Assembly (NCBI GenBank): GCA_016783505.1
Contig: JADHWK010000016.1
Coordinates: 1 to 45,564 of the forward strand
DNA from: Candidatus Zhuqueibacterota bacterium
Lineage (GTDB): Bacteria > BS750m-G25
Direction of reading: 5' to 3'
Length of the DNA: 45,564 nucleotides
The notes under the pieces were generated by a model. That model ran no database searches and was not told where the DNA came from. It worked only from the letters and a program-made list of their open reading frames with translations. This document shows, piece after piece, positions 9,439 through 45,417 of the stretch. Each line of letters starts with the position of its first letter. The first letter of the stretch is position 1. Both the position numbers and the translations under genes were made by a program.

Positions 9439-9608
9439 AACTTATATTTTTTTGCCTTATCCCGGCTATAGCTCATTCCACTGTGTTTTGTAGCTTCTAC
9501 TTGCTCCAGATGGATGTTTTCATCCGCCGGATGATTGATTATGAATGACCCCATCCATAGCGATTTTCTATGGAAAAAAATGAAGATCAATAAACATACA
9601 TATAAACA
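9439..9608. other. Gap with small hairpins inside the AT-rich island
   Basis: Contains CATCC-GCC-GGATG and other short inverted repeats near 9515-9535 but no T-tract, no reading frame and no attC-like organisation. The purpose is not visible. Confidence 0.3.
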
Positions 9609-10544: not shown

Positions 10545-10624
10545 TTTCTAAGAAATTAAAAGCATATTCCAAAGTCATATCATATATTTTGAAGTAAAAT
10601 TACCAAAATTTTAAAAATTATTGA

Positions 10625-11068
10625 ATGGCAAAAATCTATAACAAAATTCACATATGGGCACCAACAATTTTATCCTTGGTAACGATAATAGGATTGATAT
10701 TAGGAGTATTCCGTAGAATTCATCAATTTCTGACAAATTTCTTGTATCTAAGTTCAACAAAAACATTAATAATTGAAATAATTTTTTACTCGATATTAAT
10801 AGCGGTAGTACTATACCTGGCATGTTTCCATTCATTTTTTAGAAAGGTTAGATTTATTAAAAATATTACTAATGATGAGAAACAATTGTTACAAAAATAT
10901 ATTGATAAGTCAATTAGCACTATGAGTGTTGGTCCTTTACATAAAGATTTTGCAATAAGATTAGAGAAAAATGGAATTTTATATTATTCAAAAGAAACCA
11001 ACACTTTTAATATCGACAAGCGTATTTTTAAATATTTGCGTAAAGGGAAATACTTACTGAAAATATAA
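10625..11068 (+). CDS. SieB-like two-helix membrane protein
   Basis: 147 residues. Two membrane spans are clear: residues ~12-35 (APTILSLVTIIGLILGVF) and ~48-68 (LIIEIIFYSILIAVVLYLACF). The cytoplasmic tail starts with NDEKQLLQKYIDKSISTM and later has AIRLEKNGILY and FNIDKRIFKYL. This is the layout of phage superinfection-exclusion protein B-like families: two helices, then a DEK-x-x-L helix, an invariant STM/STV turn and a winged tail. AT content is high and an attC-like hairpin starts 12 bases after the stop, as in an integron gene cassette. Assignment to SieB is by remembered pattern and needs a profile search. Confidence 0.5.
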   Translation: MAKIYNKIHIWAPTILSLVTIIGLILGVFRRIHQFLTNFLYLSSTKTLIIEIIFYSILIAVVLYLACFHSFFRKVRFIKNITNDEKQLLQKYIDKSISTMSVGPLHKDFAIRLEKNGILYYSKETNTFNIDKRIFKYLRKGKYLLKI

Positions 11069-15848: not shown

Positions 15849-16175
15849 AGAACTTAGCCCCTTCGGGGCAACCGAAATAATGGAATGATGGAATTATGGG
15901 GAAATAAATATATCAGGTAATCAGGATACCAGTGGGAAGGAAATCAGTAGATCAGAACATTCGGAACGATCTTGGGACAGGATAAAACCTGATATTCTGA
16001 TTTACTTTAACTTAGACCTTTCTTAGAAATTCCGATACTTTTAATTAGTGGCTTTGATAAACCCGCTTCTATGGTTTCATCTGGAAAAATGGCCTGCAAA
16101 AGGGGGGGAATCTTCTTTTTAGAAATATTCTTTCCACCGATTTTTTTTACTTAGTAACGGTATTAGAGTCTGGTG
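15849..16175. other. rnfC-rnfD spacer with repeat and gene fragment
   Basis: Contains a copy of repeat family B (15909-16010). On the minus strand from about 16130 to 16007 a coding-like stretch reads AIFPDETIEAGLSKPLIKS and ends at a TAA, with a frame break near the G7 tract at about 16098; this could be a remnant of a small gene I cannot name. A GCCCC-TT-CGGGGC mini-hairpin lies just after rnfC. Confidence 0.4.
15909..16010. repeat. Dispersed repeat family B, copy 1
   Basis: Opens ATATCAGGTAATCAGGATAC-CAGTGGGAAG and closes GATAAAACCTGATATTCTGATTTACTTTAA. The left AATCAGGATACCAG and the complement of CTGATATTCTGATT are inverted. Copies 2 and 3 lie at 18245-18384 and 30131-30268, both also inside rnf/nqr gene gaps. 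Confidence 0.75.
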
Positions 16176-17210
16176 ATGGAAAAAACGGGATTTCTGTCTG
16201 TTTCTCCCCACATTCGGGATGATGTATCAATCCCGAAGATCATGTATTCGGTGGTACTGTCCCTGCTGCCCGCCCTGGCAGGGGCGGTCTATTTTTTCGG
16301 CTTGCGCTCTTTATGGTTGACGCTGGTCAGTGTGGCGACAGCAGTGGTGGTAGAAACCCTGCTCCAGAAATTGATGGGGCGGGAGATCACCGCCCTGGAC
16401 GGCAGTGCCATCGTCACCGGAATTCTGTTGGCTTTTAACCTTCCCCCCGGGGTGCCCTTCTGGATGCCTGCCGTGGGGTCCTTTTTCGCCATCGCCATTG
16501 CCAAAATTCCTTTCGGGGGATTGGGGTATAATCCTTTAAATCCGGCTCTGGCGGGCCGGGCCTTTTTATTGGCATCTTGGCCGGTGGAGATGACCACCCG
16601 ATGGATCGCTCCAAGGGGTGGCATAACCGCCGTCACCGGCATTGACGCCTTCACCGGAGCCACCCCCCTGGGCGTTCTTAAAGAATCCCATAAAATCCTG
16701 GCCGACCAGGCGGCCTATTCCATCGAAAAGGTGATTCAGGCCCGGGATGCGTTGGATCAACTCTCTTTTTCCTATGGGGACCTGTTCTGGGGTCGGGTGG
16801 GGGGATGTCTGGGGGAGACCTCCGTCCTCCTGCTTTTGATTGGGGCGGTTTTTCTGATGTATAAACGGTATGTCGGCTGGAAGATCCCGTTCAGCTTTCT
16901 GGGGATGGTGATGGTTCTCTCCTGGATATTTGGGGGGGACAAGGGGGGGTTCAGCGGCGATCCCATCTTTCATCTTCTTTCCGGCGGGTTGATCTTAGGG
17001 GCGTTCTTCATGGCTACTGATATGGTGACCACGCCGGTGACCTTTAAAGGTCGGCTGATCTTCGGCACCGGCTGCGGGGTGCTGACGGTGGCCATTCGTC
17101 TCTTAGGGGGTTACCCCGAAGGGGTCTCCTACTCAATTTTGTTGATGAACTTGACAACACCCCTGATTGACCGCTATACGATGCCGAGAATATTTGGGAC
17201 TAAAAAATAA
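16176..17210 (+). CDS. rnfD: RNF complex subunit D (flavinylated membrane subunit)
   Basis: Integral membrane subunit carrying covalent FMN and part of the ion path. ATG 16176 is preferred; GTG 16173 would add one residue. About 10 hydrophobic segments can be seen. The ApbE flavinylation motif D-A-F-T-G-A-T (fits Dxx[ST]GAT) is near residue 160, and the conserved FGGLGYNPLNPALAGR and FFMATDMVTTPVT segments are present. At ~345 residues it has the short RNF-type N-terminus, in contrast to the longer NqrB-like paralogue at 28990. No ApbE gene is in the window. Confidence 0.95.
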   Translation: MEKTGFLSVSPHIRDDVSIPKIMYSVVLSLLPALAGAVYFFGLRSLWLTLVSVATAVVVETLLQKLMGREITALDGSAIVTGILLAFNLPPGVPFWMPAVGSFFAIAIAKIPFGGLGYNPLNPALAGRAFLLASWPVEMTTRWIAPRGGITAVTGIDAFTGATPLGVLKESHKILADQAAYSIEKVIQARDALDQLSFSYGDLFWGRVGGCLGETSVLLLLIGAVFLMYKRYVGWKIPFSFLGMVMVLSWIFGGDKGGFSGDPIFHLLSGGLILGAFFMATDMVTTPVTFKGRLIFGTGCGVLTVAIRLLGGYPEGVSYSILLMNLTTPLIDRYTMPRIFGTKK

Positions 17211-17335
17211 CCTAACATTTCAGCCACGAAGGCACCAAGACACAGGGGTAAATAAGAGACTTGAATAAGGTTGAACACTAAAAGGTTGTGGCTGATCGCT
17301 GATAGCTGAACGCTTCTTCCCAATGAGGAGGGAAT

Positions 17336-17497
17336 ATGAAGGTTACAATCGAAATCCGGGATGATCTATACAGGAAGTTAAAAACAATTACAGAGATGGA
17401 TGATTGCTCAATTGACGAAGAAATTGAGATGGCAGTGCTGGTTATGGCTAAGAAGCGCACCTTGATCCAACGACTGATGGAGGAGACAGGGGGCTGA
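17336..17497 (+). CDS. Small ribbon-helix-helix-like protein, possible antitoxin
   Basis: A 53-residue ORF: MKVTIEIRDDLYRKLKTI, then EEIEMAVLVMAKKRTLIQRLMEETGG. An excellent GAGGAGGG ribosome site lies five bases upstream. A short beta-like basic/hydrophobic start followed by two helices is how many CopG/RHH antitoxins look. The next 70 bases contain broken coding-like phrases (EFDEAMQRLAD-stop, MKEILFLDVD-stop) that might be the residue of a longer antitoxin tail and a partner toxin start. It sits between rnfD and rnfG, so it is an intruder in the RNF operon. Confidence 0.5.
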   Translation: MKVTIEIRDDLYRKLKTITEMDDCSIDEEIEMAVLVMAKKRTLIQRLMEETGG

Positions 17498-17578
17498 ATT
17501 TGACGAGGCGATGCAAAGGTTAGCTGATTAGGTCCCGATGAAGGAAATTCTGTTTTTAGATGTTGATTAGGCTAAAGA

Positions 17579-18151
17579 ATGAAAAATATTTTAAAACTTG
17601 CCCTTATCCTGATGTTCATCGCCCTCATCGCCGCTGTGGGGTTGGCCCTGGTGAACTTGAAGACGAAACCGATCATCGAAGCCTATAAACGGTGGCAGCA
17701 GGAACAGGCCCGCAGGGAGGTCATACCGGTCGCTGAAGAGGGTGTATTTATATTAAAGGATAACGAGACGGAGTTTCCCTATTATATCGCCTATGTTGAC
17801 CCCGATACCACCAGGCTGGTGGGTTATACCTTTCTGGCTAAAGGAAAGGGCTACAGCAGCACCATTGAGACGGTGGTGGGGGTGGATACCGCTGGGATGG
17901 TGACCGGAATTAAGATCACCTTTCAGCAGGAGACTCCGGGGCTGGGGGCCAGGGCTACCGAGGTCAAATACGGTGATGAAAAACCCTGGTTTCCCCTCCA
18001 GTTCGCCGGGAAGTTGGCCCGCAACTTGGCCGTGGATAAGGACGGGGGCGAAATCCAGTCCATAACCGGAGCTACCATTACCTCCCGGGTAGTCACCAAC
18101 TCCATTAACGAGGGGATGAAGAAGCTTCAAGAAAAACTGAGCTTTAGGTAA
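17579..18151 (+). CDS. rnfG: RNF complex subunit G (covalent-FMN periplasmic subunit)
   Basis: 190 residues: a single N-terminal membrane span (LKLALILMFIALIAAVGLALV), then a soluble FMN-binding domain outside the membrane. The ETPGLGARATEVKY segment and the flavinylation site S-I-T-G-A-T-I-T-S near residue 165 are clear. The usual Asp three residues before the T/S-GAT motif is Gln here, as also in the NqrC-like paralogue at 30592. The stop is followed by a repeat-rich gap before rnfE. Confidence 0.94.
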   Translation: MKNILKLALILMFIALIAAVGLALVNLKTKPIIEAYKRWQQEQARREVIPVAEEGVFILKDNETEFPYYIAYVDPDTTRLVGYTFLAKGKGYSSTIETVVGVDTAGMVTGIKITFQQETPGLGARATEVKYGDEKPWFPLQFAGKLARNLAVDKDGGEIQSITGATITSRVVTNSINEGMKKLQEKLSFR

Positions 18152-18486
18152 TAGTTCACCACGGATAACCACAGAATAACACAGAAAAAGATGAGAAATG
18201 GGCAAATGAAGAACTAGCGAAGTAAATTTCCAAATGGGAATAAGAATATCAGATGATCAGGATACATGCCCGTCCCGAAGGTTCGGGACAGGCGGGTCAG
18301 CGGGAAGAATATCAGTCGTAGACCCGTTTCACCAGGGTGGATCAGAACATCAGGATAAAATCTGATATTCTGATATACCTTTAATTTTGGCTCCGTAAAA
18401 TTTGAGATGTTACCACTAAATTTCAGGGTTGATATCCCGAAACTTCGGGACCGTGGTGAACTGTTACAACTTTAGAAATAGGGATT
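18152..18486. other. rnfG-rnfE spacer made of repeats
   Basis: No gene. It holds CACCACGGATAACCACAGAATA-type low-complexity sequence (18157-18190; a similar phrase, CCACGAAGGCACCAAGACAC, follows rnfD), family B copy 2, and two TCCCGAA palindromes (18273 and 18435). Confidence 0.7.
18245..18384. repeat. Dispersed repeat family B, copy 2, with nested insertions
   Basis: Compared with copy 1, this copy has an extra block of about 30 bases carrying a TCCCGAAGG-TTCGGGA palindrome between GATAC and CAGCGGGAAG, and a second extra block (CGTAGACCCG..CCAGGGTGG) between CAGT and GATCAGAACAT. The rest aligns, ending CTGATATTCTGAT. This shows that the palindrome-bearing block behaves as an insertion unit. 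Confidence 0.75.
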
Positions 18487-19116
18487 ATGGAACTGAGCAA
18501 GGAATTTTTTAAAGGGCTGTATAAGGAAAACCCCGTCTTTCGATTAGCCCTGGGCCTGTGTCCGGCGTTGGCAGTGTCTAACTCGGTGGAGAATGGGATT
18601 GGTATGGGGGTTGCCGTTACCTTTGTGCTTGTCTGTTCAAATTTTCTTATTTCGTTGATCCGGAAAGGGGTACCCCCCAAGATCCGGATTCCCGTCTTTA
18701 TCGTCATCATCGCCACCTTTGTCACCATCGCTGATCTGGTGATGAACGCCTACCGGCCTGAGCTTCACAAAAATTTGGGCATTTTCGTTCCCCTGATCGT
18801 GGTAAACTGCATCATCCTGGGCCGGGCCGAGGCCTTTGCCTCCAAGCAGGGGGTGGCGGCCTCTTTCGTGGACGGGCTGGGGATGGGTATAGGGTTTACG
18901 CTGGCGCTGGTATTGATCGCCACCGTGCGGGAGATCCTGGGTGCGGGGACTTTTTTAGGCTATCCCCTGCTGGGCCCCGGGTATAAACCGGTGCTGTTGC
19001 TGGTCCTGGCCCCGGGGGCCTTCATCACCATGGGGCTTTTTATGGGGCTGTTCGCCTGGCTGGATCGCCGCCGTAAATTCCGTTATCTTGAGATAGAGAG
19101 GGCCAAATATAAATAA
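18487..19116 (+). CDS. rnfE: RNF complex subunit E
   Basis: Six-span membrane subunit, 209 residues. With RnfA it forms the intramembrane iron-sulfur site: the cysteines in LGLCPALAVSN and VVNCIILGRAEAFAS are in place. A basic loop RKGVPPKIRIP and the C-terminal APGAFITMGLFMG are family features. Preceded by a repeat-filled spacer; the start ATG 18487 follows AATAGGG. Confidence 0.95.
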   Translation: MELSKEFFKGLYKENPVFRLALGLCPALAVSNSVENGIGMGVAVTFVLVCSNFLISLIRKGVPPKIRIPVFIVIIATFVTIADLVMNAYRPELHKNLGIFVPLIVVNCIILGRAEAFASKQGVAASFVDGLGMGIGFTLALVLIATVREILGAGTFLGYPLLGPGYKPVLLLVLAPGAFITMGLFMGLFAWLDRRRKFRYLEIERAKYK

Positions 19117-19280
19117 TTAAACTTTGGCAAATTTAAAATGCTGATTTCTAATCCCGAACCTTCGGGATGGGATTTGGAGCTTGTGATTTATAAAAATTGA
19201 TCATTGCGCTTAGTAAATAATAAAAGGCAGAAAATGATAAAGATGTTGGGCCAGCAGAAGCATAAGAGAAAGAAGGGATT

Positions 19281-19910
19281 ATGGACTTCGGCTACCTGCT
19301 GACGATTGCCATAGGGACGATTTTCATCAATAACTTTGTTCTGGCTCGGTTCTTAGGGCTCTGTCCCTATCTTGGGGTGTCCAGGAAGATGGATTCGGCC
19401 GTCGGGATGGGCCTGGCCGTCATCTTTGTGATGACTATGGCCTCGACGTTTACCTGGCTGGTCTATACCTATCTTCTGTCTCCTGTGACCAACATCTGGG
19501 GAATAGATCTGATCTTCCTGCGCACCATCGCCTTTATTTTGGTCATCGCTTCACTGGTGCAGTTCTGCGAGATCGTCATCCAGAAGGTAAGCCCGCACCT
19601 GTATAAGGCCCTGGGCATCTATCTACCCCTGATTACCACCAACTGCGCTATTTTGGGGGTGGCAGTGCTGAATATTGACGAGTTTTTCCAAAACGGGGGA
19701 CCTATTACGGGAAGTTTCATCTATGCGGTCGTCCAGGGGTTTACGGCCGGGTTGGGGTTTACCTTAGCCCTGGTGCTGATGGCGGGTTTGAGGGAAAAGC
19801 TGGAGATGGCCGGGGTCCCCGAATCCCTGAAAGGGCAGCCTATTGCCTTCATCATGGCCGGGCTGATGGCTATCGCTTTCCTGGGATTTTCCGGGTTCTC
19901 AGTAGGGTAG
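19281..19910 (+). CDS. rnfA: RNF complex subunit A
   Basis: Six-span membrane subunit of 209 residues, partner of RnfE around the intramembrane cluster. Cysteines in LGLCPYLGVSRK and TTNCAILGVAV are conserved, as is NNFVLARFLG at the N-terminus. AAGAAGGG lies before ATG 19281. Separated from rnfB by 293 bases with an inverted repeat. Confidence 0.95.
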   Translation: MDFGYLLTIAIGTIFINNFVLARFLGLCPYLGVSRKMDSAVGMGLAVIFVMTMASTFTWLVYTYLLSPVTNIWGIDLIFLRTIAFILVIASLVQFCEIVIQKVSPHLYKALGIYLPLITTNCAILGVAVLNIDEFFQNGGPITGSFIYAVVQGFTAGLGFTLALVLMAGLREKLEMAGVPESLKGQPIAFIMAGLMAIAFLGFSGFSVG

Positions 19911-20067
19911 GTGGGGACAATGGAAAATTGGATGGATAAATGGAATATTAAAATATGGGTCAGGCTTTGGTGAAATCAACTTCTATTCGGGGGGATATTC
20001 AGGCGTGAAAAAATGCGCTGTTTTGAAATAGTATCATTTGGTTCTATGAAAATTTTTGAGTGTGTCA

Positions 20068-20131
20068 ACCCCGTTAGATAATCATTTTGCAAGGTTAGGT
20101 ATGTTAGACAGTTGTCAGTATCTAACGGGGT
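20068..20131. repeat. 13-bp inverted repeat between rnfA and rnfB
   Basis: ACCCCGTTAGATA at 20068-20080 and its exact complement TATCTAACGGGGT at 20119-20131, with 38 bases between. No T-tract follows. It could be a small non-autonomous element or an RNA structure ahead of rnfB. Confidence 0.6.
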
Positions 20132-20203
20132 CAACCGTGTTGATACATAAAGCGAGATGGTCGCTTTACTCCAAATTATTCCCAAAAGTTTTTATTGACC
20201 GTT

Positions 20204-21232
20204 ATGGATCCATCAATCTATGCCGCATTGATCAGCGTCGGCGTGCTGGGGTTTATCTTCGGCGGCGGGCTGGCCTATGCATCCAAAAAATTTCATGTGG
20301 AGATTGACCCCCGAGCTGAAAGGGTGCTGGATGCCCTTCCCGGCATTAACTGCGGGGCCTGCGGCTACCCGGGGTGTAGCGCCTTCGCTGAAGGGGTGGT
20401 AAACGGGGAGGCGGAACCATCGGGGTGCACCCCCGGTGGAGAGGGGGTTTCCGAGATAGTCTCGGCGATCATGGGGGTGGAGGTGGTGACCGCCACCGCC
20501 CCAGTGGCCGTTGTTCAATGTAAGGGGGGGCGAGGGGAGGCCAAGCAGCATTTCCAATATTACGGTGTGCCGGATTGTAACGCCGCCGATCTGGTAGCCG
20601 GGGGGCATATGGCCTGCCGCTACGGCTGTCTGGGACTGGGGTCCTGCGTTCGGGCCTGTCCCTTCGACGCCATGGAGATGAACGATAACGACCTGCCGGT
20701 AGTTTACGATGACCTGTGCACGGGATGCGGGTTATGCGTGGCCGCCTGTCCACGCAATATCATCGCCCTTATCCCCCGGGAGGCTAAAGTTTACTTAGGA
20801 TGCGTCTCCCGGGATCGGGGTAAGAAGGTCAAGGACGTCTGCTCGGTAGGCTGCACCGGCTGCACCCTGTGTGCCAACCCCAAGGTAACCCCCTCGGGGG
20901 CCATTCAAATGGACGGTTATCTGCCGGTAATTGATTTTAATGTTGAGGATAACCTTCTGGTGGCCGCCTATAAGTGTCCCACCAATTCCTTCGTGGATAA
21001 GCTCAAACATCGGCCCAAATTTACCATCACCAATGACTGTACGGGAACGGGTGAGTGCGTTTCTGCGTGTCCGGTCAAGGACTGCATTACCGGAGTGAAA
21101 GGGGAGAAGTTCGAGATTAACCCCGAGCTCTGTATCAGTTGCGGGCGGTGTCAGCCCGTATGTCCCGAAAAGGCCATTACCGTTATCGGGGCGCTGGCCT
21201 ATCAAGAGCAGTCGTTGGAAGGGGTAGGATAA
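20204..21232 (+). CDS. rnfB: RNF complex subunit B (multi-cluster ferredoxin subunit)
   Basis: Entry point for electrons from reduced ferredoxin. ATG 20204 (MDPSIYAALISVG) is preferred over TTG 20195; there is no clear Shine-Dalgarno. One membrane anchor, then the special cluster domain NCGACGYPGC..SGC (~50-75). After that come several ferredoxin-type motifs: CRYGCLGLGSCVRACP, CTGCGLCVAACP, CSVGCTGCTLC, CTGTGECVSACP and CISCGRCQPVCP. At 342 residues it is much longer than E. coli RsxB, matching the long cluster-rich RnfB of anaerobes. It closes the RNF set; nuoJ begins 53 bases on. Confidence 0.94.
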   Translation: MDPSIYAALISVGVLGFIFGGGLAYASKKFHVEIDPRAERVLDALPGINCGACGYPGCSAFAEGVVNGEAEPSGCTPGGEGVSEIVSAIMGVEVVTATAPVAVVQCKGGRGEAKQHFQYYGVPDCNAADLVAGGHMACRYGCLGLGSCVRACPFDAMEMNDNDLPVVYDDLCTGCGLCVAACPRNIIALIPREAKVYLGCVSRDRGKKVKDVCSVGCTGCTLCANPKVTPSGAIQMDGYLPVIDFNVEDNLLVAAYKCPTNSFVDKLKHRPKFTITNDCTGTGECVSACPVKDCITGVKGEKFEINPELCISCGRCQPVCPEKAITVIGALAYQEQSLEGVG

Positions 21233-21285
21233 TTCTATCGGCCAGTGATTTTAATTGACTCTTTGGGTTCCTTTTCATATATTTT

Positions 21286-21777
21286 ATGGCATTATTGTTC
21301 TATTTATTCGCTCTGGTGGTCGCCTTTTCAGCGGTGATGGTGATTATCCGGAGGAATCCGGTCTCCAGCATCCTTTACCTGATGCTGGTCATGTTTTCCC
21401 TGGCTGGGCTTTATGTTCTGCTGGGAGCCCGCTTTATCGCCGCCCTGCAGGTGACGGTCTACGCCGGGGCCATCATGGTGCTCTTTTTGTTCGTGGTGAT
21501 GCTGCTGAACCTGGATAAGCCGGATGGTGTTGAGAGAAAACGGGCCGTAACCCGACTGATTGGGTTTTTAGTGGCCGGGCTGTTGTTGTTTTTGAGCGCT
21601 TTGTTGGTCAGGTCCAATTCCATTCAAAGCTCGGGAATGGACTTTAGACCGATGGGAACGGCCCAGGCGGTGGGGAAGACCCTGTTTACGGATTATTTAC
21701 TGCCCTTGGGAATAGTTCCCGTTTTGCTGCTTGCGGCTGTGCTGGGGGCGGTAGTACTGACGAATAAGAAATTATGA
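21286..21777 (+). CDS. nuoJ: NADH-quinone oxidoreductase subunit J
   Basis: Membrane subunit of respiratory complex I, 163 residues with five spans. The conserved third helix with its pi-bulge region reads QVTVYAGAIMVLFLFVVML, intact. N-terminal RRNPVSSILYLMLVMFSLAGLY is typical. First of a J-K-L-(M)-N block that follows rnfB. The rest of complex I (A-D, E-G, H, I) is not in the window. No ribosome site is visible before ATG 21286. Confidence 0.92.
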   Translation: MALLFYLFALVVAFSAVMVIIRRNPVSSILYLMLVMFSLAGLYVLLGARFIAALQVTVYAGAIMVLFLFVVMLLNLDKPDGVERKRAVTRLIGFLVAGLLLFLSALLVRSNSIQSSGMDFRPMGTAQAVGKTLFTDYLLPLGIVPVLLLAAVLGAVVLTNKKL

Positions 21778-21862
21778 GAATTATGAACCTTATTTCTAAA
21801 GCTGGGTTGTCGGATAGTAACGAATTTTCGGGATGCATCCGACCTACAGCAGAATTTGGGAA

Positions 21863-22168
21863 ATGCAGATTACGTTAGAACATTATCTGTTCTTGTCCGC
21901 TTTTCTTTTTGCCGTCGGGGTAGCCGGGGTGCTCACCCGGCGGAACGCCCTGATAATCTTTATGTCCATTGTGCTTATGCTGAATGGGGTGAATCTGACC
22001 TTCATCGCCCTGGCTCATTATCTTTCCGATATGGTCGGCCGGGTGTTCGTGGGCTTGGGGGTAACGGTGGCCGCCGCTGAGGTAGCGGTGGGGCTGGCTG
22101 TTGTGATCGCCATCTTCCGGAATAAGGGGACGGTTCATATTGATGTATTGAGCCTGACGAAATGGTAG
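21863..22168 (+). CDS. nuoK: NADH-quinone oxidoreductase subunit K with altered Glu36
   Basis: Start [16 protein letters not shown] at ATG 21863 matches NuoK; the upstream ATG 21833 adds ten spacer-derived residues. 101 residues, three spans. The second essential glutamate (E. coli Glu72) is present in [12 protein letters not shown] (residue 73). The first, Glu36 of E. coli, normally in MSIELMLN, is Val37 here (MSIVLMLN, codon GTG instead of GAG/GAA). Its stop overlaps the nuoL start by seven bases, so coupling is retained. Either proton transfer through NuoK is lost or the subunit works differently. Confidence 0.93.
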
Positions 22169-24000
22169 ACTATATTTGCTTAATCCTCCTCTTCCCCCTG
22201 ATCGGGGCCGGGGTTAACGGGCTTTTCGGGCATAAGCTTTCGGAAAAGACGGTGGGGATCATCGGTTGTTCGGCCATCGGGCTCTCCTTTCTGGTGGCTG
22301 GGGGAGTAATGATCCAGTTGGTGGGTCTGCCTCTAGCTGAGCGAAGGGCCGAAGTTACCCTATTCACCTGGCTTTTGGCCGGTGATTTTCGCATTCCGTT
22401 GGCTCTGTTGGTGGATCAGCTCTCCGGGGTGATGATCCTGGTGATAAGCGGGGTGGGTTTTCTGATCCATATCTATTCGCTGGGCTACATGCACGGGGAT
22501 CGGGGTTTTTCCCGCTACTTTGCCTGGATGAACCTGTCTGTCTTCTTCATGTTGCTGTTGGTGCTGGGAAATTCCTTTCCCATTTCGTTGGTGGGCTGGG
22601 AGGGGGTTGGTCTCTGCTCTTATCTTCTGATCGGCCTCTGGTATGAGGACCCGGCGAAGGCGGCGGCCGGGAAGAAGGCCTTCATCGTAGGCCGGATCGG
22701 TGACTGCGGGTTAATTATCGGTGTGCTGTTGATCTTCGCCACCTTCAAAACCCTGAATTATGTCGCGGTTTTTGAACTGGCAGGGTCATATCCAGGCAAC
22801 AGTGGGGTTATGATTGCCATTGCCTTGCTACTCTTCGTTGGGGCGGTTGGCAAATCGGCCCAGCTTCCCCTATACGTATGGCTGCCCGACGCCACTGCCG
22901 GCCCCCCACCGGTATTAGCCCTACTTACCACCACCACCATGGTCCCCGCTGGGGTATACATGGTGGCCCGGACCCATCCCCTTTATGAACTGGCCCCAGT
23001 TTCATTGACAGTCCTCTTGGTGGTAGGGGGCCTCACAGCAATTTATGCCGCCTCCATCGCCCTGGTCCAGAACGACATCAGGCGGGTGCTGGCCTATGCT
23101 ACCATCAGTCAACTGGGGTATATGTTTATGGCCTGCGGTGCCGGGGCCTATGCCGCCGGCATTTTCCATCTGACAACCTATGCTTTCTTCAATGCACTGC
23201 TATTTTTAGGGGTCGGGAGCATCATCCACGCCCTGGGAGGGGATGGGGACATCCGCCAGATGGGGGAGCTCAAGAAACATCTTCCTATTACCTTTTGGAC
23301 GTTTCTAGTAGCTGCGCTGGCCATCTCGGGTATCCCTGGGTTTTCGGGCTTCTTCAGCAAAGTTGAAATTCTATGGAAGTCCTTGAGCGGGGGCCATCCC
23401 TATGGCTGGGCGGTGGGGACAGTAGTTGCCGGCATGACCTCATTCTACATGTTCCGATTGCTCTATTTGACATTCTATGGCGATTTTCGGGGGAAAAAGA
23501 AAGCCCCAGAGCACATCCAAGAATCACCCCCCTCCATGGGAGTTCCCCTCATCCTATTGGGTGTCCTGTCCCTCTTCGGGGGATTGGGGGGGCTGCGCAA
23601 GCTGTTGGGCGGTGGGGATTGGTTGGGCCGTTTTTTAGCCCCGGTTTTCGAAAGCCCCGGGGTTCGTCACCGGGTCTATCATACCAGCGGCTTTGAATTC
23701 CTGATCATGGGGATTTTCGTGTTCGTAGTGCTGGTGGGTATTGCTCTGGCCTATTTGATGTATCGTAAAGCCCCCGAACTTCCCCAAAAGGCGGCCTCGA
23801 AATTCAGATTGGCCTATCATATTCTGTACAATAAATATTTTGTGGACGAAATCTACAATGTTGTCGTCGCTCAACCGGTGGTAAAGGGCTCCAATTGGCT
23901 ATTGCGCTGGGTTGACGATGGGGCCATTAACAAATCGGTAATGCTCATGGCCTCGGGGGTCGTCTTGATCCTCGGCTATTTTATTTTGCAAGTTCTTTAG
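22162..24000 (+). CDS. nuoL: NADH-quinone oxidoreductase subunit L with altered channel residues
   Basis: Antiporter-like membrane subunit of complex I, 612 residues, with the long C-terminal lateral helix. Conserved: E147 in [15 protein letters not shown]231 in [10 protein letters not shown]336 in FHLTTY, K400 in [11 protein letters not shown]. Changed relative to E. coli NuoL: His254 is Thr256 ([11 protein letters not shown] instead of LIHAATMVTAG), His338 is Tyr340 and the central Lys342 is Asn344 ([11 protein letters not shown] instead of THAFFKALLF). These belong to the central proton pathway. The frame is intact, so the gene is expressed-looking but probably not a canonical pump. Overlaps nuoK; nuoM after it is a remnant. 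Confidence 0.95.
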
Positions 24001-24009
24001 GAATAAATA

Positions 24010-24173
24010 GTGAACCTCACTATTCTCTCCTTTATCACCTTTTCATTGGGATAGTCCTCTGGATCGGGGTCTATCCGAAGCCCTTCTTAAGCCGGATGGA
24101 GGCCTCAGTGGGCTATCTGATCCAGCGGGTGGAGTTGGCTAGGGATGGGACACCTAATTCAGACAACCTGTGA
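24010..24173 (+). pseudogene. nuoM: nuoM remnant: N- and C-terminal stubs joined
   Basis: Where nuoM is expected there are only ~160 bases. GTG 24010 reads V-NLTILSFITFSLG and stops at TAG 24052, resembling a NuoM start. In another frame from 24051 the sequence reads IVLWIGVYPKPFLSRMEAS and VGYLIQRVELA to a TGA at 24171, which is the NuoM C-terminus (the 'WIGxYPxPFLxRMExSV' tail). About 460 codons between these are missing. This looks like a large internal deletion. Confidence 0.7.
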
Positions 24174-24260
24174 GTTATCTATCATTAACTATCCAAAAGA
24201 ATTTTAAAACCAAGGTTTTTAATCACATATTGATCAGGTTGTTGAAAGAGAGAGTATTGA

Positions 24261-24593
24261 ATGAAACTGCCGAAGCGGGAGAACGCCTACGTACCACCGG
24301 GAAAATTAGCTAGATATCTTCTTTCAGAAATGCATCCTGTTGGTAAGTCGAAGGCCAAATTCTTCCAATCGGTCGGTTTCTATGGGTCCAACGTGGATAT
24401 ACTTGAGAGAAGTTTGGTTATGATTGCACACTCTAACGAGGTCAGCGAGACAAAGAAGACCTCGCATGGCACGAAATATTTAGTTGATGGAGAGATTCAA
24501 ACACCAGACGGGATGCTCGTTCAGTTGAGAACTGTCTGGATTATAGATGCTGGAAAGGACACTCCCCGTTTCGTGACAGCATATCCAGCTTAG
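24261..24593 (+). CDS. DUF6883-like protein
   Basis: 110 residues with the pattern of DUF6883: PKRENAYVPPGKLARYLLSEMHP cut short here to KLARYLLSEMHP, then GKSKAKFFQSVGF, HGTKYLVDGEIQTPDGM and RTVWIIDAGKDTPRFVTAYP. The invariant SKA-x-FF, G-x-KY and VWI..TAYP are present. Followed 22 bases later by a DUF4926 gene; this pair recurs widely in bacteria and behaves like a toxin-antitoxin-type couple, though no biochemistry is implied here. It lies exactly between two nuoM C-terminal remnants, so it was inserted into, or replaced, a nuoM region. Confidence 0.8.
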   Translation: MKLPKRENAYVPPGKLARYLLSEMHPVGKSKAKFFQSVGFYGSNVDILERSLVMIAHSNEVSETKKTSHGTKYLVDGEIQTPDGMLVQLRTVWIIDAGKDTPRFVTAYPA

Positions 24594-24615
24594 ATAATAA
24601 GGGAGGAGCTTTTAG

Positions 24616-24852
24616 ATGATTCGAGAATTGGACTCTGTTGCTTTGGCCTGTGACATTGCAGAGCATGGCCTGAAACAGGGCGATATAGGAGCAGTGGTTC
24701 ACTGCTACGGTGATGGATTGGCTTTTGAAGTTGAATTTGTGACCGCAGCGGGCAAGACAATTACTGTATTGACACTTAGCAGGGATGAAATCCGCCCTTT
24801 GGGGGGGAGAGAAATTCTTCATGCTCGGGAACTGGAACAGACTTTGGCATAA
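24616..24852 (+). CDS. DUF4926-like protein
   Basis: 78 residues: IRELDSVALACDIAEHGLKQGDIGAVVHCYGDGLAFEVEF in part, that is HGLKQGDIGAVVH then AFEVEFV and VLTLSRDEIRPL. This is the small beta-barrel DUF4926 family, with the GD-x-GxVV turn and VEF strand intact. A GGGAGGAG ribosome site precedes ATG 24616. It pairs with the DUF6883 gene. Confidence 0.82.
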   Translation: MIRELDSVALACDIAEHGLKQGDIGAVVHCYGDGLAFEVEFVTAAGKTITVLTLSRDEIRPLGGREILHARELEQTLA

Positions 24853-24929
24853 ACAGCTGAAGAGTCAGTGAAAAACGGTTGAGCTTAAACAAATGTCTAA
24901 ATTTAACTGCGGTAAAAATTTGTTCTCTT

Positions 24930-25059
24930 AGTGAACATCTAGATCAGTGTCTAGCCGAAGCCCTTCTTAAGCCGAATGGAGGTTTCTGTGGACCACATGA
25001 TCAAGAGGCTGGAATTGGCCAGGGATGAGGGATTAAATTTCTGTATCGGAAATTGCTGA
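24930..25059 (+). pseudogene. nuoM: Second nuoM C-terminal remnant
   Basis: Reads SV-stop-PKPFLSRMEVSV then DHMIKRLELARDE to a TGA at 25057-25059. It is clearly homologous to the C-terminal part of the remnant at 24051-24173 (the stretch CCGAAGCCCTTCTTAAGCCG is identical), but with many differences further on, including TAT to TAG in the 'GVYPKP' motif. It therefore comes from a diverged second nuoM copy, or an old duplication, rather than a recent target-site duplication. Confidence 0.7.
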
Positions 25060-25104
25060 TTATTGTTAGAAGGGCGCAAAACAAAAATCTTCCAAAGGGA
25101 ATCC

Positions 25105-26550
25105 TTGATATCCAGTCCTGAAATAAATATAAGTTCCATCGGGCCGGAGCTGACTGTTTTGCTGACGGCCATCGTCATCCTGGTGGTTGATCGGTGGGTG
25201 GCGAAAAGGAAACCATGGTTGCCATTGGGGCTGGGACTGGCCGGGTTGGCCCTGGCCCTGGGGGTCACGTTGTCGTTATGGAATCAATCCCGGGCTGGGT
25301 TCGGGGGGCTGATCGCCGCCGATAACTATGCTCTGTTTTTTAACCTTATTTTTCTCATTGCTGCCGCCATGACCTTTCTGGTCTCAAGATTTTATCTGGA
25401 CCAGAACGGGATGCAGCGGGGTAAATATTATGTTTTGTTGCTCTTTGCCCTGCTGGGGATGATGGTAACAGCGTCAGGCACGGACCTGTTGACCATTTTC
25501 CTGGGCCTGGAAACCTCGGCCGTTTCCCTCTATGCCCTGGCTGGCTTTCTGCGGGGACGGGTAAAATCCAATGAATCGGCCCTGAAATATATTCTGCTGG
25601 GGGCCTTTTCTACCGGATTTTTTCTGTATGGGGTGGCGCTGGTTTACGGGGGCACGGGGACTACCAATCTGGGGAGAATTGCTGACCACTTAGCCAAGAC
25701 CGACCTTTTATCATCCTCAATAATGCTGGCGGGGATGGGGCTGTTGATAGTGGGGTTCGGCTTTAAGGTGGCGGCGGTGCCCTTTCATTTCTGGGCCCCC
25801 GATGTCTACGAAGGGGCCCCAACCCCGATAGCCGCCTTCATCTCGGTGGGTCCAAAGGCAGCGGCTTTCGCCGCATTCCTGCGGGTATTCAGCACGGCTC
25901 TGCCGGCCCTGAAGCCCCAATGGACCCCGGTGCTCTACGTATTAGCCATCCTGACTATGACCCTGGGGAACCTGGCGGCCCTATCCCAGTGGAACATCAA
26001 ACGGATGCTGGCCTATTCCTGTATCGCCCATGCAGGGTATGTGCTGGTGGCGTTGGTGGCCGGTGAGGAGTTAGGAAATGCCAGTGTCCTCTTCTATCTG
26101 TTCGTCTACAGCCTGATGAACCTGGGGGTCTTCACCATCGCCATCTTGATCAATCGAAGGGGGAAAGGGAATTACCATCTGAACGACTACGCCGGGCTGG
26201 GCACCAGCCATCCCCTCCTGGGGGCGGTCATGGCGCTGTTTATGCTATCGTTAGCGGGAATTCCCCCCACGGCCGGGTTCTTCGGTAAATTCTATATCTT
26301 CGCTGCCGCGGTTAAATCGGACTATATCTGGTTGGCGGCGATCGGAATTCTGAACTGGTTGGTTTCCGTCTATTATTATCTGCGAATCGTCGTCACTATG
26401 TATATGATAAAGCCGGAGATCGCCTTGAAAAGGGTCAGGGTAGTACCGGAATTTGTGGTGGTCCTTCTGGTTTCGGCCCTGGGGATCCTGGGGCTGGGCC
26501 TCTTTCCGTCCGGACTGATGTTCTTGGTGAAAAGCGCGGTGATTTTTTGA
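25105..26550 (+). CDS. nuoN: NADH-quinone oxidoreductase subunit N
   Basis: Antiporter-like complex I subunit, ~481 residues, 14 spans. TTG 25105 is preferred because AAAGGGA lies just upstream; TTG 25063 is also in frame. Key residues are retained: Glu in GLETSAVSLYAL, Lys in GFKVAAVPFHFW, the PDVYEGAPTPIAAF loop, Lys in VGPKAAAFAAF and Lys in TAGFFGKFYIF. NIKRMLAYSCIAHAGY is standard. NuoN thus looks fully functional, in contrast to NuoK and NuoL upstream. Confidence 0.94.
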   Translation: MISSPEINISSIGPELTVLLTAIVILVVDRWVAKRKPWLPLGLGLAGLALALGVTLSLWNQSRAGFGGLIAADNYALFFNLIFLIAAAMTFLVSRFYLDQNGMQRGKYYVLLLFALLGMMVTASGTDLLTIFLGLETSAVSLYALAGFLRGRVKSNESALKYILLGAFSTGFFLYGVALVYGGTGTTNLGRIADHLAKTDLLSSSIMLAGMGLLIVGFGFKVAAVPFHFWAPDVYEGAPTPIAAFISVGPKAAAFAAFLRVFSTALPALKPQWTPVLYVLAILTMTLGNLAALSQWNIKRMLAYSCIAHAGYVLVALVAGEELGNASVLFYLFVYSLMNLGVFTIAILINRRGKGNYHLNDYAGLGTSHPLLGAVMALFMLSLAGIPPTAGFFGKFYIFAAAVKSDYIWLAAIGILNWLVSVYYYLRIVVTMYMIKPEIALKRVRVVPEFVVVLLVSALGILGLGLFPSGLMFLVKSAVIF

Positions 26551-41865: not shown

Positions 41866-42876
41866 TTGGATGAAGACATAGTGGACGACGGACGCTATAC
41901 TTACGCAGTAGCCCGCATCAGAGCCCTGGAGACCAAGCTCTTCGATCGGCCGCAGATTGAGAGGCTGTTGGCAGAGGACTCCCAGGGAATGCTCCGACTT
42001 TTGAAGGAATCGGACTACGCCGAATCCTTCAGTGAGGTGGGGGACCCCCACGATTTTGAACCGGCTTTAACCAGGGAGCTGGATAAGGTTCTTTCTCTGC
42101 TGACGAAGCTCTCCCCAGACAGAGAGCTGATAGATCTCTTCCGTTTGAGATATGATTACCATAATTTGAAGATTTTGCTGAAGGCTAAATATCTTGATGA
42201 GAGCGGCGATGGTGCCCTGATGGACCTGGGTATGTCGGGGCTTGCGTCTTTAAAATCCATGGTTCAGGAGGGCAAATATCTGGGTTTGATTGAACCATTA
42301 AAGGAGTGCTTCCCCGGGGCTGTGGCCGCTTACGAGAGGGAAAGCGATCCCCGGGAGATCAATCTGGCCGTTGATCGGGCGATGTGGGAGCATTTTTTAA
42401 GAATAGCGGATAAATATCACTGTGCTTTTTTGAAAGGCTTATTCCAATGTACCATCGACCTGATCAACATTAAGATTCTCCTGAGAATCAAAGGGTTTGA
42501 GTCTGAAAAGAAAGTGCTAGAAAGGAACCTGATCCCTGGTGGGATATTAGAAAAGGGTTTTTTCCTCCAAAGCTATGATGAGCCCTGGGATGCCTTCCTC
42601 ACCCAGATGGCCGTAACGCCCTATGAATATATCCTAACTGAGGGGTTGAAATCCTGGCCGGAGGATAAGTCCTTTACGCAATTTGAAATCGCCTGTGATC
42701 GTTATATCTTCCGTTATCTTGAGAAGGCAAAATACGTCGTCTTCGGGATAGAACCGCTGATCGCCTATCTCGTTTACAAAGAAAACGAGATCAAATTGAT
42801 TCGAACCATGATGGTGGGTAAGCTCAACGGCATAGACCGGGAGACCCTGGAAGCAAGGTTGAGGGTGCCATATTAG
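41866..42876 (+). CDS. atpC: V-type ATPase subunit C (central-stalk cap, d-type)
   Basis: About 336 residues. Two starts are possible: TTG 41866 or GTG 41881, the latter giving M-DDGRYTYAVARIRALETKLF, closer to family starts. RYxYAxARxRxxExxLL, a helical bundle of three repeats, and EIKLIRTMMVGKLNG near the end ('ExxnIRxIxxGK') are family features. It couples the K ring to the central rotor. The last ~16 codons are duplicated at 45269 along with downstream DNA. Confidence 0.92.
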   Translation: MDEDIVDDGRYTYAVARIRALETKLFDRPQIERLLAEDSQGMLRLLKESDYAESFSEVGDPHDFEPALTRELDKVLSLLTKLSPDRELIDLFRLRYDYHNLKILLKAKYLDESGDGALMDLGMSGLASLKSMVQEGKYLGLIEPLKECFPGAVAAYERESDPREINLAVDRAMWEHFLRIADKYHCAFLKGLFQCTIDLINIKILLRIKGFESEKKVLERNLIPGGILEKGFFLQSYDEPWDAFLTQMAVTPYEYILTEGLKSWPEDKSFTQFEIACDRYIFRYLEKAKYVVFGIEPLIAYLVYKENEIKLIRTMMVGKLNGIDRETLEARLRVPY

Positions 42877-42982
42877 CTGTTGTTAGGTATATACTTAAGA
42901 TATGAATCCATGTACTTAAAATTTATAAGGTTAACCATAAGATTCGATTGTCAATACTTATACACATGCTGGTGAATAATAT
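42830..42982. repeat. Direct repeat 1: atpC 3' end and downstream DNA
   Basis: The segment from GCATAGACCGGGAGACCCTG through the atpC stop to GGTGAATAATAT recurs at 45269-45417 in the same orientation, with about 10% differences. The two copies bracket a 2.3-kb block holding the 597-residue gene, an attC-like site and the truncated atpF. Confidence 0.85.
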
Positions 42983-43119
42983 ATTAGAATTCAAGTTTCG
43001 TATGTCTATGGGTTGTCGGCAAAAGCAGGCATTTATTTAAATATTGGTGTTTGAGTTACTATTTTTTCAAATAAATTTATATATTTATTTAACTAAACAT
43101 TAAAAGGTTAATATCAAAA

Positions 43120-44913
43120 ATGACTGTTCATAACTTTCACATTCCAGTAATGGGAATTGGCTTTACTATTGATACGCCAATCAAAGTTGCTCAATACGGA
43201 ATTTCTTCTGTAATTTCACTTGTAGACGATTTTCTTATTGAAAAAATGCGGGAATTTCATTGTAAGATATTGAATATACCTTTTGTTGCTATTGGCAAAA
43301 ATGAAGATGATTTTAGGGCTAGAAGAATCACTTCATATTTAAATCTAATTGATAAAATTGTAAAAAAGAAATTTATAGAATTAAGGGCCTCTTCATTTGA
43401 AAAAGGAAGCGAAATCATCAAATATTTAGAAATGTTGCCTGATGATTCAAAGTTAAGGCAAGTTTATAATAAAATGCTTCAGACTAAAGACAATGAAACC
43501 GTAAATAAGATGCAAAACTGGCTAAAGGAAAATTTGTTGGTAGGTTCAATAGATGTAAATATCATGACCAAACTTGATAAGACAAATTTTAAAGGGGGAA
43601 AAGAACTTTCAGTTGAGTATAACGACGGGCATGCTGCCTTACGCGGGTTTGCCTTAAGTGATTTGAATTCATCCATCGTTTTATCGGCGGGTATAAATAC
43701 ACGATTATATAGCTACTTGGCAAATTTTGAGGATTTTTATCCTGACGAGAATGGTTTTATAAAAAAGAGAATCATATTAAAAGTTAGTGACTATCGGTCA
43801 GCTTTAACACAAGGCAAATTTTTAGCAAAAAAGGGCTTGTGGGTATCAGAGTATCGTATTGAATCAGGATTAAATTGCGGGGGTCACCTCTTTGCCACTC
43901 AGGGTTACCTGTTAGGGCCAATCTTAGAGGAATTCAAGAAGCACAAAGAAGAACTTATCCACTTAACTCATGAATTGTTAGTCTCAGCCCTAAAAAACAG
44001 AAACAAACCTTTTTGCGACACTCCTTTAAACTTTAAAATCACCGTTCAAGGTGGTATTGGTAATTCAAAAGAACAAAATTTCCTTTTAAATTATTATAAA
44101 GTGGATTCAATAGGATGGGCATCTCCATTTCTTTTGGTACCGGAGGTTACAAATGTTGATCAAAACACACTTAGATTATTGAGTAATGTAAAAGAGGAAG
44201 ATCTTTATTTAAGTGATATTTCTCCTATGGGAGTTCCTTTTAATAGTTTAAAGGGCAATACCAAAGATGAAGAAAAACAGGCGTTAATAGAAAGAGGAAG
44301 ACCCGGAAGTGCTTGTCCAAAAAAAATTCTTGTTTCAAATAAAGAATTTACCAAACGAGCTATTTGTACGGCTTCACGTCAATATCAAAATCTAAAAATT
44401 AAGGAGCTCGAAAAAAAATCCCTTAATCAAAAGGAATATAAAAACTTTTTCAGGAAAATTGTCGAAAAATCATGCATTTGTGTTGGGTTGGGTACCTCGA
44501 CTTTGCTCGTAAAAAACCTGGACACAACGGTAGAAGGAAAGGGTGTTTCGGTTTGTCCGGGACCGAATATAGCCTATTTTTCAAGGGTTGTTTCGCTGCA
44601 AGAAATGGTAGATCATATATATGGCAGGATAAATATTTTAAACGAAAAATGTCGTCCAGATATGTTCGCCAAAGATTTAGATATGTATGTGGATTATTTA
44701 AGAAAAATGGTTGAGGAAAGTCTTAAGCCACTTAAGGAAAAACAAATTAAATATTTTAAGTCCTTTCAAAGTAACTTACAAGAGGGAATTAATTACTATA
44801 AAAGTCTATTTTCTAGTGTGATAGAAGAATCAAAAAGCGTGAAAGATAAATTAATTGCAGAACTAAAATATCTTGAAAACAAACTATCCTGTATATCCAT
44901 ATGCGAAACTTAA
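43120..44913 (+). CDS. Large hypothetical protein, possible TIM-barrel oxidoreductase
   Basis: 597 residues, AT-rich, not confidently recognised. The start HNFHIPVMGIGFTIDTPIKV and the segment ESGLNCGGHLFATQGYLLGP suggest a barrel enzyme of the FMN-dependent/glutamate-synthase-like kind: 'IPVMGTGFTxDTPxxV' then an 'NCGGHAF..G' loop. Cysteines at SACPKK, ICTASRQY, SCICVGLG and VSVCPGPN could bind a metal or Fe-S cluster. The last ~90 residues are a coiled coil. Similar long proteins occur in Bacteroidetes-type genomes. It is inserted between atpC and atpF and is followed by an attC-like site. No enzymatic activity can be assigned from sequence alone. Confidence 0.55.
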   Translation: MTVHNFHIPVMGIGFTIDTPIKVAQYGISSVISLVDDFLIEKMREFHCKILNIPFVAIGKNEDDFRARRITSYLNLIDKIVKKKFIELRASSFEKGSEIIKYLEMLPDDSKLRQVYNKMLQTKDNETVNKMQNWLKENLLVGSIDVNIMTKLDKTNFKGGKELSVEYNDGHAALRGFALSDLNSSIVLSAGINTRLYSYLANFEDFYPDENGFIKKRIILKVSDYRSALTQGKFLAKKGLWVSEYRIESGLNCGGHLFATQGYLLGPILEEFKKHKEELIHLTHELLVSALKNRNKPFCDTPLNFKITVQGGIGNSKEQNFLLNYYKVDSIGWASPFLLVPEVTNVDQNTLRLLSNVKEEDLYLSDISPMGVPFNSLKGNTKDEEKQALIERGRPGSACPKKILVSNKEFTKRAICTASRQYQNLKIKELEKKSLNQKEYKNFFRKIVEKSCICVGLGTSTLLVKNLDTTVEGKGVSVCPGPNIAYFSRVVSLQEMVDHIYGRINILNEKCRPDMFAKDLDMYVDYLRKMVEESLKPLKEKQIKYFKSFQSNLQEGINYYKSLFSSVIEESKSVKDKLIAELKYLENKLSCISICET

Positions 44914-44918
44914 ATTCT

Positions 44919-45047
44919 AACAACCGCTGCACCAGACGCCAAAAGAAGGGGCGCGAATTTAAAAGTTTGGAAGTCCGCATAAAGTTTTGTTTGTTACCAA
45001 AAGTCAATAGCTCAGCAAGTTTCGGTGCCGGTGAGCTTCTTCATTAA
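44919..45047. repeat. attC-like site after the 597-residue gene
   Basis: Opens TTCTAACAACCGCTGCACCAGACGCC (given in parts: TAACAACCGCTGCACC then AGACGCC) and closes CGGTGCCGGTGAGC..TTCATTAAAC. GCTgCACCaG pairs with the complement of CcGGTGAGC with one extra unpaired G, the usual extrahelical base of attC. GACGCC/GGGGCGCG forms an inner stem. The R' end (CATTAAA) departs from GTTRRRY, so the site may be decayed. Confidence 0.5.
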
Positions 45048-45069
45048 ACAATAATAAGGTCGGTTGTCT

Positions 45070-45237
45070 ATGTCTAAAATCGCCATGGTGGGGGACAGGG
45101 ATTCTATCTGGGCCTTCAAAGCTTTTGGATTTTCCCTCTGTTTCGTAAAGGATGGGGAGGAGAAGGAGGACTTAGCAAAAAGTGATCAAACACCCTACGG
45201 GTGTTTTAGGCAACCTTTTTTAATTACAAGGGATTGA
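45070..45237 (+). pseudogene. atpF: V-type ATPase subunit F, truncated
   Basis: ATG 45070 reads MSKIAMVGDRDSIWAFKAFG and continues FSLCFVKDGEEKEDLAKS, the N-terminal third of subunit F (G-D-x-D-S-x-x-G/A-F-k-a-l-G). After ~38 residues the frame enters a hairpin repeat (CACCCTACGGGTG) and stops at TGA 45235, giving 55 residues against a normal ~100. The missing part is not found before the end of the window; instead a copy of the atpC 3' end follows. Subunit F is needed in the central stalk, so an intact copy must exist elsewhere if the enzyme works. Confidence 0.8.
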
Positions 45238-45254
45238 AAGACACCCGTAGGGTG
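45189..45254. repeat. Hairpin pair that interrupts atpF
   Basis: ACACCC-TAC-GGGTGT (45190-45204 region) and GACACCC-GTA-GGGTGTC (about 45239-45255) with ~35 bases between. The two hairpins are mutually related in sequence, as in a small mobile palindromic element. Confidence 0.65.
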
Positions 45255-45268
45255 TCGGATCGCTCTTA

Positions 45269-45417
45269 GCATAGATCGGGGAACCCTGGAAGCAAGGTTG
45301 ATGGTGCCATATTAGCTGTTGTTAGATACTTAATATATGAATCCATGTACTTAAAATTTATAAGCTTAACCATAAGATTCAATTGTTAATACTTATATAC
45401 GTGCTGGTGAATAATAT
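45269..45417. repeat. Direct repeat 2: copy of atpC 3' end
   Basis: GCATAGATCGGGGAACCCTG..GAAGCAAGGTTGATGGTGCC-ATATTAG reproduces the last codons of atpC and ~100 bases of its downstream spacer (see 42830-42982). It is out of context here, with no atpC body before it. Confidence 0.85.

Follow-up and report, generated by a model that had tools for sequence, protein, structure and literature searches.

In the window (the whole stretch of 45,564 nucleotides that was analysed, from a Candidatus Zhuqueibacterota bacterium), nuoM is absent between nuoL (22162-24000) and nuoN (25063-26550), and a putative N-terminal stub, a NuoM C-terminal tail, a pair of small genes and a second NuoM tail are found there instead. 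The tails are better read as coming from one nuoM gene, whose 3' end was duplicated by the insertion of a gene cassette, than from two dead nuoM genes. The whole account that we favour, and consider likely, combines cassette insertion, a target duplication of about 90 bp, deletion of the nuoM body and decay of the complex I membrane arm. The interval is organized as follows:

24010..24042, + strand: putative nuoM N-terminal stub (starts with GTG; reading frame closed by a stop at the deletion junction; assigned by position and motif only)
24058..24173, + strand: nuoM C-terminal tail 1 (TGA at 24171-24173; its first 90 nt form the left copy of the proposed target duplication)
24148..24937, + strand: proposed inserted segment between the repeat copies (790 bp, 43% GC; nuoL, 54%)
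24261..24593, + strand: DUF6883 gene, putative BECR-fold RNase-like toxin (PF21814, 3.3e-31; model pLDDT 96.4; PDB 6cp9, Z 12.3)
24616..24852, + strand: DUF4926 gene, putative antitoxin with an SH3-like barrel model (PF16277, 1.2e-21; model pLDDT 91.8)
24938..25027, + strand: nuoM C-terminal tail 2 (right copy of the proposed target duplication; two in-frame stops)

The NuoM tails and the missing nuoM body

A repeat finder and a NuoM profile agree in placing two NuoM tails on either side of the two small genes, as the initial annotation had it, and the Pfam matches listed above confirm the identities that it gave to these genes. The repeat finder aligned 24058-24147 with 24938-25027 (90 nt, 81% identical, start-to-start distance 880), the longest exact run common to both tails being 20 nt. 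The profile was built from the NuoM proteins of at most 32 loci and run on pieces from all six reading frames of the window over its entire length, stops being rendered as X. It matched tail 1 at positions 464-498 (iE 3.3e-6) and tail 2 at positions 463-496 (iE 0.002), both tails beginning at a common profile position, 463-464 of 522. The translation of tail 1, GIVLWIGVYPKPFLSRMEASVGYLIQRVELARDG...NSDNL, runs without a stop to its own end, while that of tail 2 reads stop, ISV, stop, PKPFLSRMEVSVDHMIKRLELARDE.

Apart from the NuoL and NuoN genes, nothing else in the window rose above noise in this search, and neither tail showed any NuoM likeness upstream of the common start point. The body of nuoM is thus missing from the window and only its tails are recovered, which bears out the claim that the gene was wrecked by an internal deletion. 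Elsewhere in the assembled genome, a metagenome-assembled genome (MAG) of 2.5 Mb in 89 contigs that is 59.9% complete, TIGR01972 matched only NuoN and NuoL. The NuoM-like N-terminal stub ascribed to the first tail stands in part: a putative 11-14 codons, VNLTILSFITFSLG, start with the GTG at 24010, 9 bases after the nuoL stop, and this position and an ILSxITF resemblance noticed by eye speak for a nuoM origin, but the stub gave no significant match to the NuoM profile. The stub is out of frame with tail 1, since a stop codon at the junction terminates it.

A misassembly of the metagenome, hiding a nuoM that lies complete at this position in the true genome, would fit a fragmented and incomplete MAG. 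We nevertheless hold this to be very unlikely, because an exact run of 20 nt is short for assembler confusion, the tails are 81% identical rather than the same, the genome contains one copy only of the DUF6883 gene, and the erosion of NuoL, NuoK and NuoJ described below agrees with a genuine loss.

One nuoM gene or two

The initial annotation had drawn from the two tails two former nuoM genes, both deleted internally. A tandem of this kind, whose members lost their bodies before the pair took the gap, has precedents: complexes of the 2M type with a duplicated NuoM exist, according to the accessible text of PMC6606698, and one of the 59 relative loci with nuoM and nuoN (L058; median gap over the 59 loci, 10 bp) has two nuoM genes. 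The relatives compared share only the domain with the window genome, the close relatives with rnfB-nuoJKLMN lying outside this set. The evidence in the window nevertheless makes the tandem quite unlikely. Only the last ~35 residues of NuoM are duplicated, a single N-terminal stub is present, and neither tail reaches upstream of the shared NuoM position. Moreover, an identity of 81% at the DNA level is high for old paralogues, and the arrangement of tail, pair and tail is also found at unrelated, non-Nuo genes. Finally, the 2M type predicts two nuoM genes between nuoL and nuoN and, in the same accessible text, goes with a lengthened NuoL, whereas the window duplicates the 3' end only and its NuoL, at 612 aa, is not lengthened. 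As for the gene pair, it was absent from 59/59 relative loci with nuoM and nuoN, and neither DUF6883 nor DUF4926 was found in any of the relative nuo loci fetched.

Flanking repeats at other DUF6883 loci

The DUF6883 loci used for comparison were drawn from two genome samples, one of mixed genomes (DUF6883 match in 25/386) and one of genomes of a single phylum, which we take to be cyanobacteria-like (match in 93/386). Of 121 distinct loci, 120 including the window were tested, a locus being dropped if it had less than 100 bp of flank, and DUF4926 was recognised at 110 of the 120. A flanking repeat was defined as a direct repeat across the pair with an SW score of at least 25 within 500-bp flanks. 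Such repeats were found at 27/120 loci, compared to 28 of the 1136-1138 control intervals of 600 bp slid along the same 80 fetched regions (Fisher 7e-15). All 27 loci hold complete pairs; their repeats are 29-354 bp long and 73-97% identical, and at 17 of them neither copy is more than 130 bp away from the pair. The other 93 loci showed no flanking repeat, and the rate was 4/30 outside the one-phylum sample, the collection being dominated by one phylum. An earlier test with 700-bp flanks and a threshold of 22 gave 8/59, against 2/1160 mismatched flank pairs.

At several loci, as in the window, the upstream gene has had its 3' end copied: an HsdM gene at L201 and L233 (the latter with HsdS downstream of the pair), a PurL-type gene at L186 and an unidentified gene at L136. 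At L209 the copied stretch comprises the 3' end of an HlyD-type gene plus DNA reaching the next gene, and at L234 an NtrC-type gene has its 5' end copied. Many other flanking repeats are intergenic or unplaced, and some are of low complexity; that of L165/L248 holds GCGATCGC-type motifs. The genes next to repeat-flanked pairs (HsdM, HlyD-type, NtrC-type, PurL-type, NuoM) are mutually unrelated. The same picture at non-Nuo loci goes against the view that the pair had come to fill a space left by nuoM; rather, insertion of the pair most likely produced the second NuoM tail.

A site-specific integrase element with gene 3' ends as att sites would likewise account for the left copy restoring the end of the upstream gene at several loci. 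This is, however, highly improbable: no integrase or transposase gene was recognised in the 790-bp unit, in which the two DUF genes were the only recognised ones, the repeats vary from 29 to 354 bp and derive their sequences from unrelated genes, and one of them (L234) is the 5' end of a gene.

Empty sites in sister genomes

Two other lineages, those of L209 and L186 rather than that of the window itself, provided observations of sites lacking the pair. At the L209 locus (genome G538), a 633-bp insert contains the pair and the two repeat copies are 95% identical; in 8/9 sister genomes the site is uninterrupted, with a single copy of 83-84 bp, the ninth genome giving no flanks. For L186, one of five sister genomes has an empty site with an overlap of 33 bp, one carries the pair and three gave partial matches; this case is less clean because the repeated motif is found a third time nearby. 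L222 was set aside as an empty-site case, the locus being too rearranged. In one sister genome (G644, L306:2955-3218), a fragment 98% identical to the pair region of L209 is found ~200 bp past the aligned empty site, which hints at recent movement.

These sites also bear on a homologous import, in which a donor nuoM-pair-nuoN segment would have recombined into nuoN, the left tail being the recipient's and the diverged right tail the donor's. A coding-bias test used the codon positions of the mismatches between the copies. At positions 1, 2 and 3, these number 6, 3 and 8 in the window (p 0.17), 3, 1 and 5 at L201, 5, 3 and 10 at L233 (p 0.04), 3, 2 and 2 at L234, 1, 3 and 3 at L136, 0, 1 and 0 at L209, and 0, 0 and 1 at L186. 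The partly coding pattern at L233 is in favour of import, but the window pattern is not significant and does not distinguish neutral decay after duplication from import of a donor tail. Furthermore, the L209 copies are 95% identical and their single-copy site is present in sister genomes, and a prior insertion in the donor would be needed anyway. Import is accordingly unlikely, and we retain direct insertion with target duplication.

Predicted nature of the DUF6883 and DUF4926 proteins

DUF4926 lies directly downstream of DUF6883 for 125/139 DUF6883 ORFs, both genes being small and co-directional. The DUF6883 model (pLDDT 96.4) has the order H-H-H-E-E-E-E, in which the helices precede an antiparallel sheet of four strands. 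Among solved structures it is closest to PDB 6cp9, the CdiA-CT toxin of Klebsiella pneumoniae 342 (Foldseek E 9.2e-5, TM 0.73; VIA Z 12.3, rmsd 2.1 over 100 residues; 14% identity), and lower-Z matches include 6cp8, a Salmonella toxin-antitoxin complex, BrnT and RelE. According to the accessible text of a review (PMC9086364), the K. pneumoniae 342 toxin has tRNA-Ile as substrate and K157, Y160, H170, R252 and T255 as active residues. In 65 DUF6883 proteins, K15 and Y19 are conserved in 65/65, H25 in 56/65, R103 in 52/65 (K in 8) and T106 in 46/65 (S in 14), and all five occur together in 30/65; as judged from the sequence offsets, they may be the counterparts of the five toxin residues. The model thus makes DUF6883 a putative BECR-fold RNase-like toxin with a candidate active site. 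It differs from the CdiA-CT toxin in being a stand-alone protein of 110 aa, encoded in an operon with DUF4926 and without CDI delivery parts.

The DUF4926 model (pLDDT 91.8) is an SH3-like barrel, with Z scores of 9.0 to 3fc3 and 8.3 to 3c4s; these matches were rejected as a guide to function, being common SH3-like barrels that show none. DUF4926 would be the putative antitoxin. The conserved pairing and the BECR toxin fold of the model are in line with the earlier description of the pair as toxin-antitoxin-like. Type II toxin-antitoxin systems of the RelE/BrnT class likewise have two small co-directional genes in fixed order and a BECR-type fold; unlike them, the pair has a partner modelled as an SH3-like barrel, with no recognised DNA-binding antitoxin fold, and both families carry DUF names. 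Neither family had a match in PADLOC-DB or NCBIfam, and a sequence search against PDB chains gave no convincing relative. DUF6883, although widespread, was not found named in print in our literature search.

Proposed history of the interval

We propose that the DUF6883-DUF4926 cassette inserted at the nuoM-nuoN junction, duplicating ~90 bp that correspond to the 3' end of nuoM; of the two tail copies, one would have closed nuoM and the other would have preceded nuoN. The insertion could have arisen when a short DNA molecule, linear or circular, was captured in the course of break repair or by template switching. The cassette would then have been kept because both neighbours were unharmed and because the loss of a toxin-antitoxin pair is penalised by the pair itself. 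In that event or at a later time, ~1.3-1.4 kb of nuoM (as estimated from NuoM length) would have been deleted out of frame, the lost part reaching from about codon 11-14 up to the duplicated tail at its left edge, after which the NuoJKL(-)N arm would have lost channel residues and probably become non-functional or repurposed. At tail 1, the deletion and the repeat share a boundary, the left edge of the repeat; a two-step history leaves this coincidence unexplained, and it may be a sign of one complex event.

State of the complex I membrane arm

The remaining nuo genes of the window are as follows:

21286..21777, + strand: nuoJ (intact frame; PF00499, 8.5e-40; 3/10 near-invariant columns changed)
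21833..22168, + strand: nuoK (intact frame; PF00420, 4.2e-24; conserved Glu replaced by Val, E47V)
22162..24000, + strand: nuoL (intact frame, 612 aa; TIGR01974, 1.7e-192; 21/140 near-invariant residues changed)
25063..26550, + strand: nuoN (intact; TIGR01770, 2e-136; 3/49 near-invariant columns changed)

Erosion was assessed at columns 95% conserved among relatives. With 21/140 departures, the window NuoL has the largest number of the 108 sequences, the 107 orthologues having a median of 1 and a maximum of 12; the changes include H256T, K344N, D401V and HAA to TTT, and residues H256, K344 and D401 presumably lie in the proton path. NuoJ also exceeds the others (3/10 against a maximum of 2), whereas the departures of NuoK (1/17, E47V) and NuoN (3/49) stay within the range of the others (up to 2 and up to 6, respectively). 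No match to NuoH (PF00146) was found in the assembled genome. From its sequence, the membrane arm looks decayed or altered. With nuoM gone and these residues lost, decay is the simplest reading; the alternative is a repurposed NuoJKLN module beside the Rnf genes.

The rnfG/E/A/B genes adjoin nuoJKL(M)N directly (17579-26550), and no ORF matching rnfB was found up to 6 kb upstream in 80 nuoL loci. In the nearest nuo locus by NuoL (L003, 53% identical), a pair and an ORF that, judged by eye, look HicB/HicA-like and transposase-like, respectively, lie between nuoL and an intact nuoM (L003:8038-9002), which indicates that this region has been invaded elsewhere too.

Relation to known insertions

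It has long been asked how small toxin-antitoxin pairs, without the help of a transposase, come to occupy so many sites on chromosomes. If our account is true, a duplication that spares both neighbours would explain the presence of such pairs inside essential operons. The accessible text of PMC3874152 and PMC3031569 describes restriction-modification systems that insert with long, variable target duplications of ~100 bp, and credits the observation to Nobusato 2000 and Furuta 2010. As far as that text goes, these are, like the unit in the window, addiction-type units that seem to move without linkage to a known mobile element and are bordered by long, variable direct target copies. They differ from it in their cargo: the unit seen here is a toxin-antitoxin-like pair of 0.6-0.8 kb, and the signature is also found around HicAB, VapBC, RelB/ParE, Gp49/HTH and BrnT pairs (see below). 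In the part of it that is accessible, a 2009 review (PMC2654758) draws a parallel between restriction-modification and toxin-antitoxin systems in their apparent mobility, without giving the duplication signature. A literature search that covered mostly non-subscription papers found no report of toxin-antitoxin pairs inserted with a long target duplication. We therefore regard the window case as a further, new example of the insertion known for restriction-modification systems, one in which the class of cargo is new as well.

Scars with two tails, together with empty sites in sister genomes, offer a measurable footprint (unit ends, duplication length, genes struck), which makes the insertion mechanism testable in laboratory strains. 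For DUF6883, the model provides a likely RNase fold and a candidate active site. For annotation, the case calls for caution, in that duplicated gene tails need not imply duplicated genes.

The same signature around other genes

The signature is not special to the DUF6883-DUF4926 pair, since pairs of the HicAB, VapBC and BrnT types show it. Indeed, small co-directional ORF pairs of the same regions had flanking repeats in 21/103 cases, no different from the 27/120 of the DUF6883 loci. We looked at 11 of these control pairs. The five that were scanned with Pfam were all of the toxin-antitoxin type (VapB/PIN, RelB-like/ParE, HicA, Gp49/HTH and BrnT); those of L222 and L187 are VapBC-like by eye, those of L174, L175 and L176 have no toxin-antitoxin look, and the eleventh pair is that of L204:978. 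HicAB pairs bounded by their ORFs had repeats at 6/24 loci, six loci without a recognised pair having been dropped, compared to 2/30 and 0/30 when the interval was centred on the HicA match, so that the definition of the interval matters.

In the window and 20 stretches of its own genome (334,560 bases), 25 repeat rows were obtained. Those of L323, L332, L319 and part of L326 and L336 are within-gene or tandem-like repeats and were not counted as insertions. The others include an array of 80-180 bp repeats around two HicB/HicA-like pairs (L318:1-4600) and repeats around a DUF5615 PIN-like gene (L322) and single genes (L320, L326, L335, L336). A second case is found in the window:

42830..42982, + strand: left copy of the second repeat (3' end of the V-ATPase subunit C gene, 41866-42876, and downstream DNA)
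42983..45268, + strand: second inserted segment, as proposed (2286 bp, 34% GC; 597-aa orphan gene at 43120-44913)
45269..45417, + strand: right copy of the second repeat (91% identical over 153 aligned positions)

The 597-aa orphan protein had no match in Pfam, NCBIfam or PADLOC. As solitary genes show the signature too, the process may capture any small DNA, and toxin-antitoxin pairs may be over-represented among the captures that survive.

Two further observations were made in the window. Three genes of unclear family, with weak PtuB, Mu F-like and SieB-like signals, lie amid housekeeping genes at 8536-11068. A 36-nt direct repeat (86% identical, copies 2.37 kb apart, 15978-18386) is located upstream of the ORFs at 16173 and 18487.
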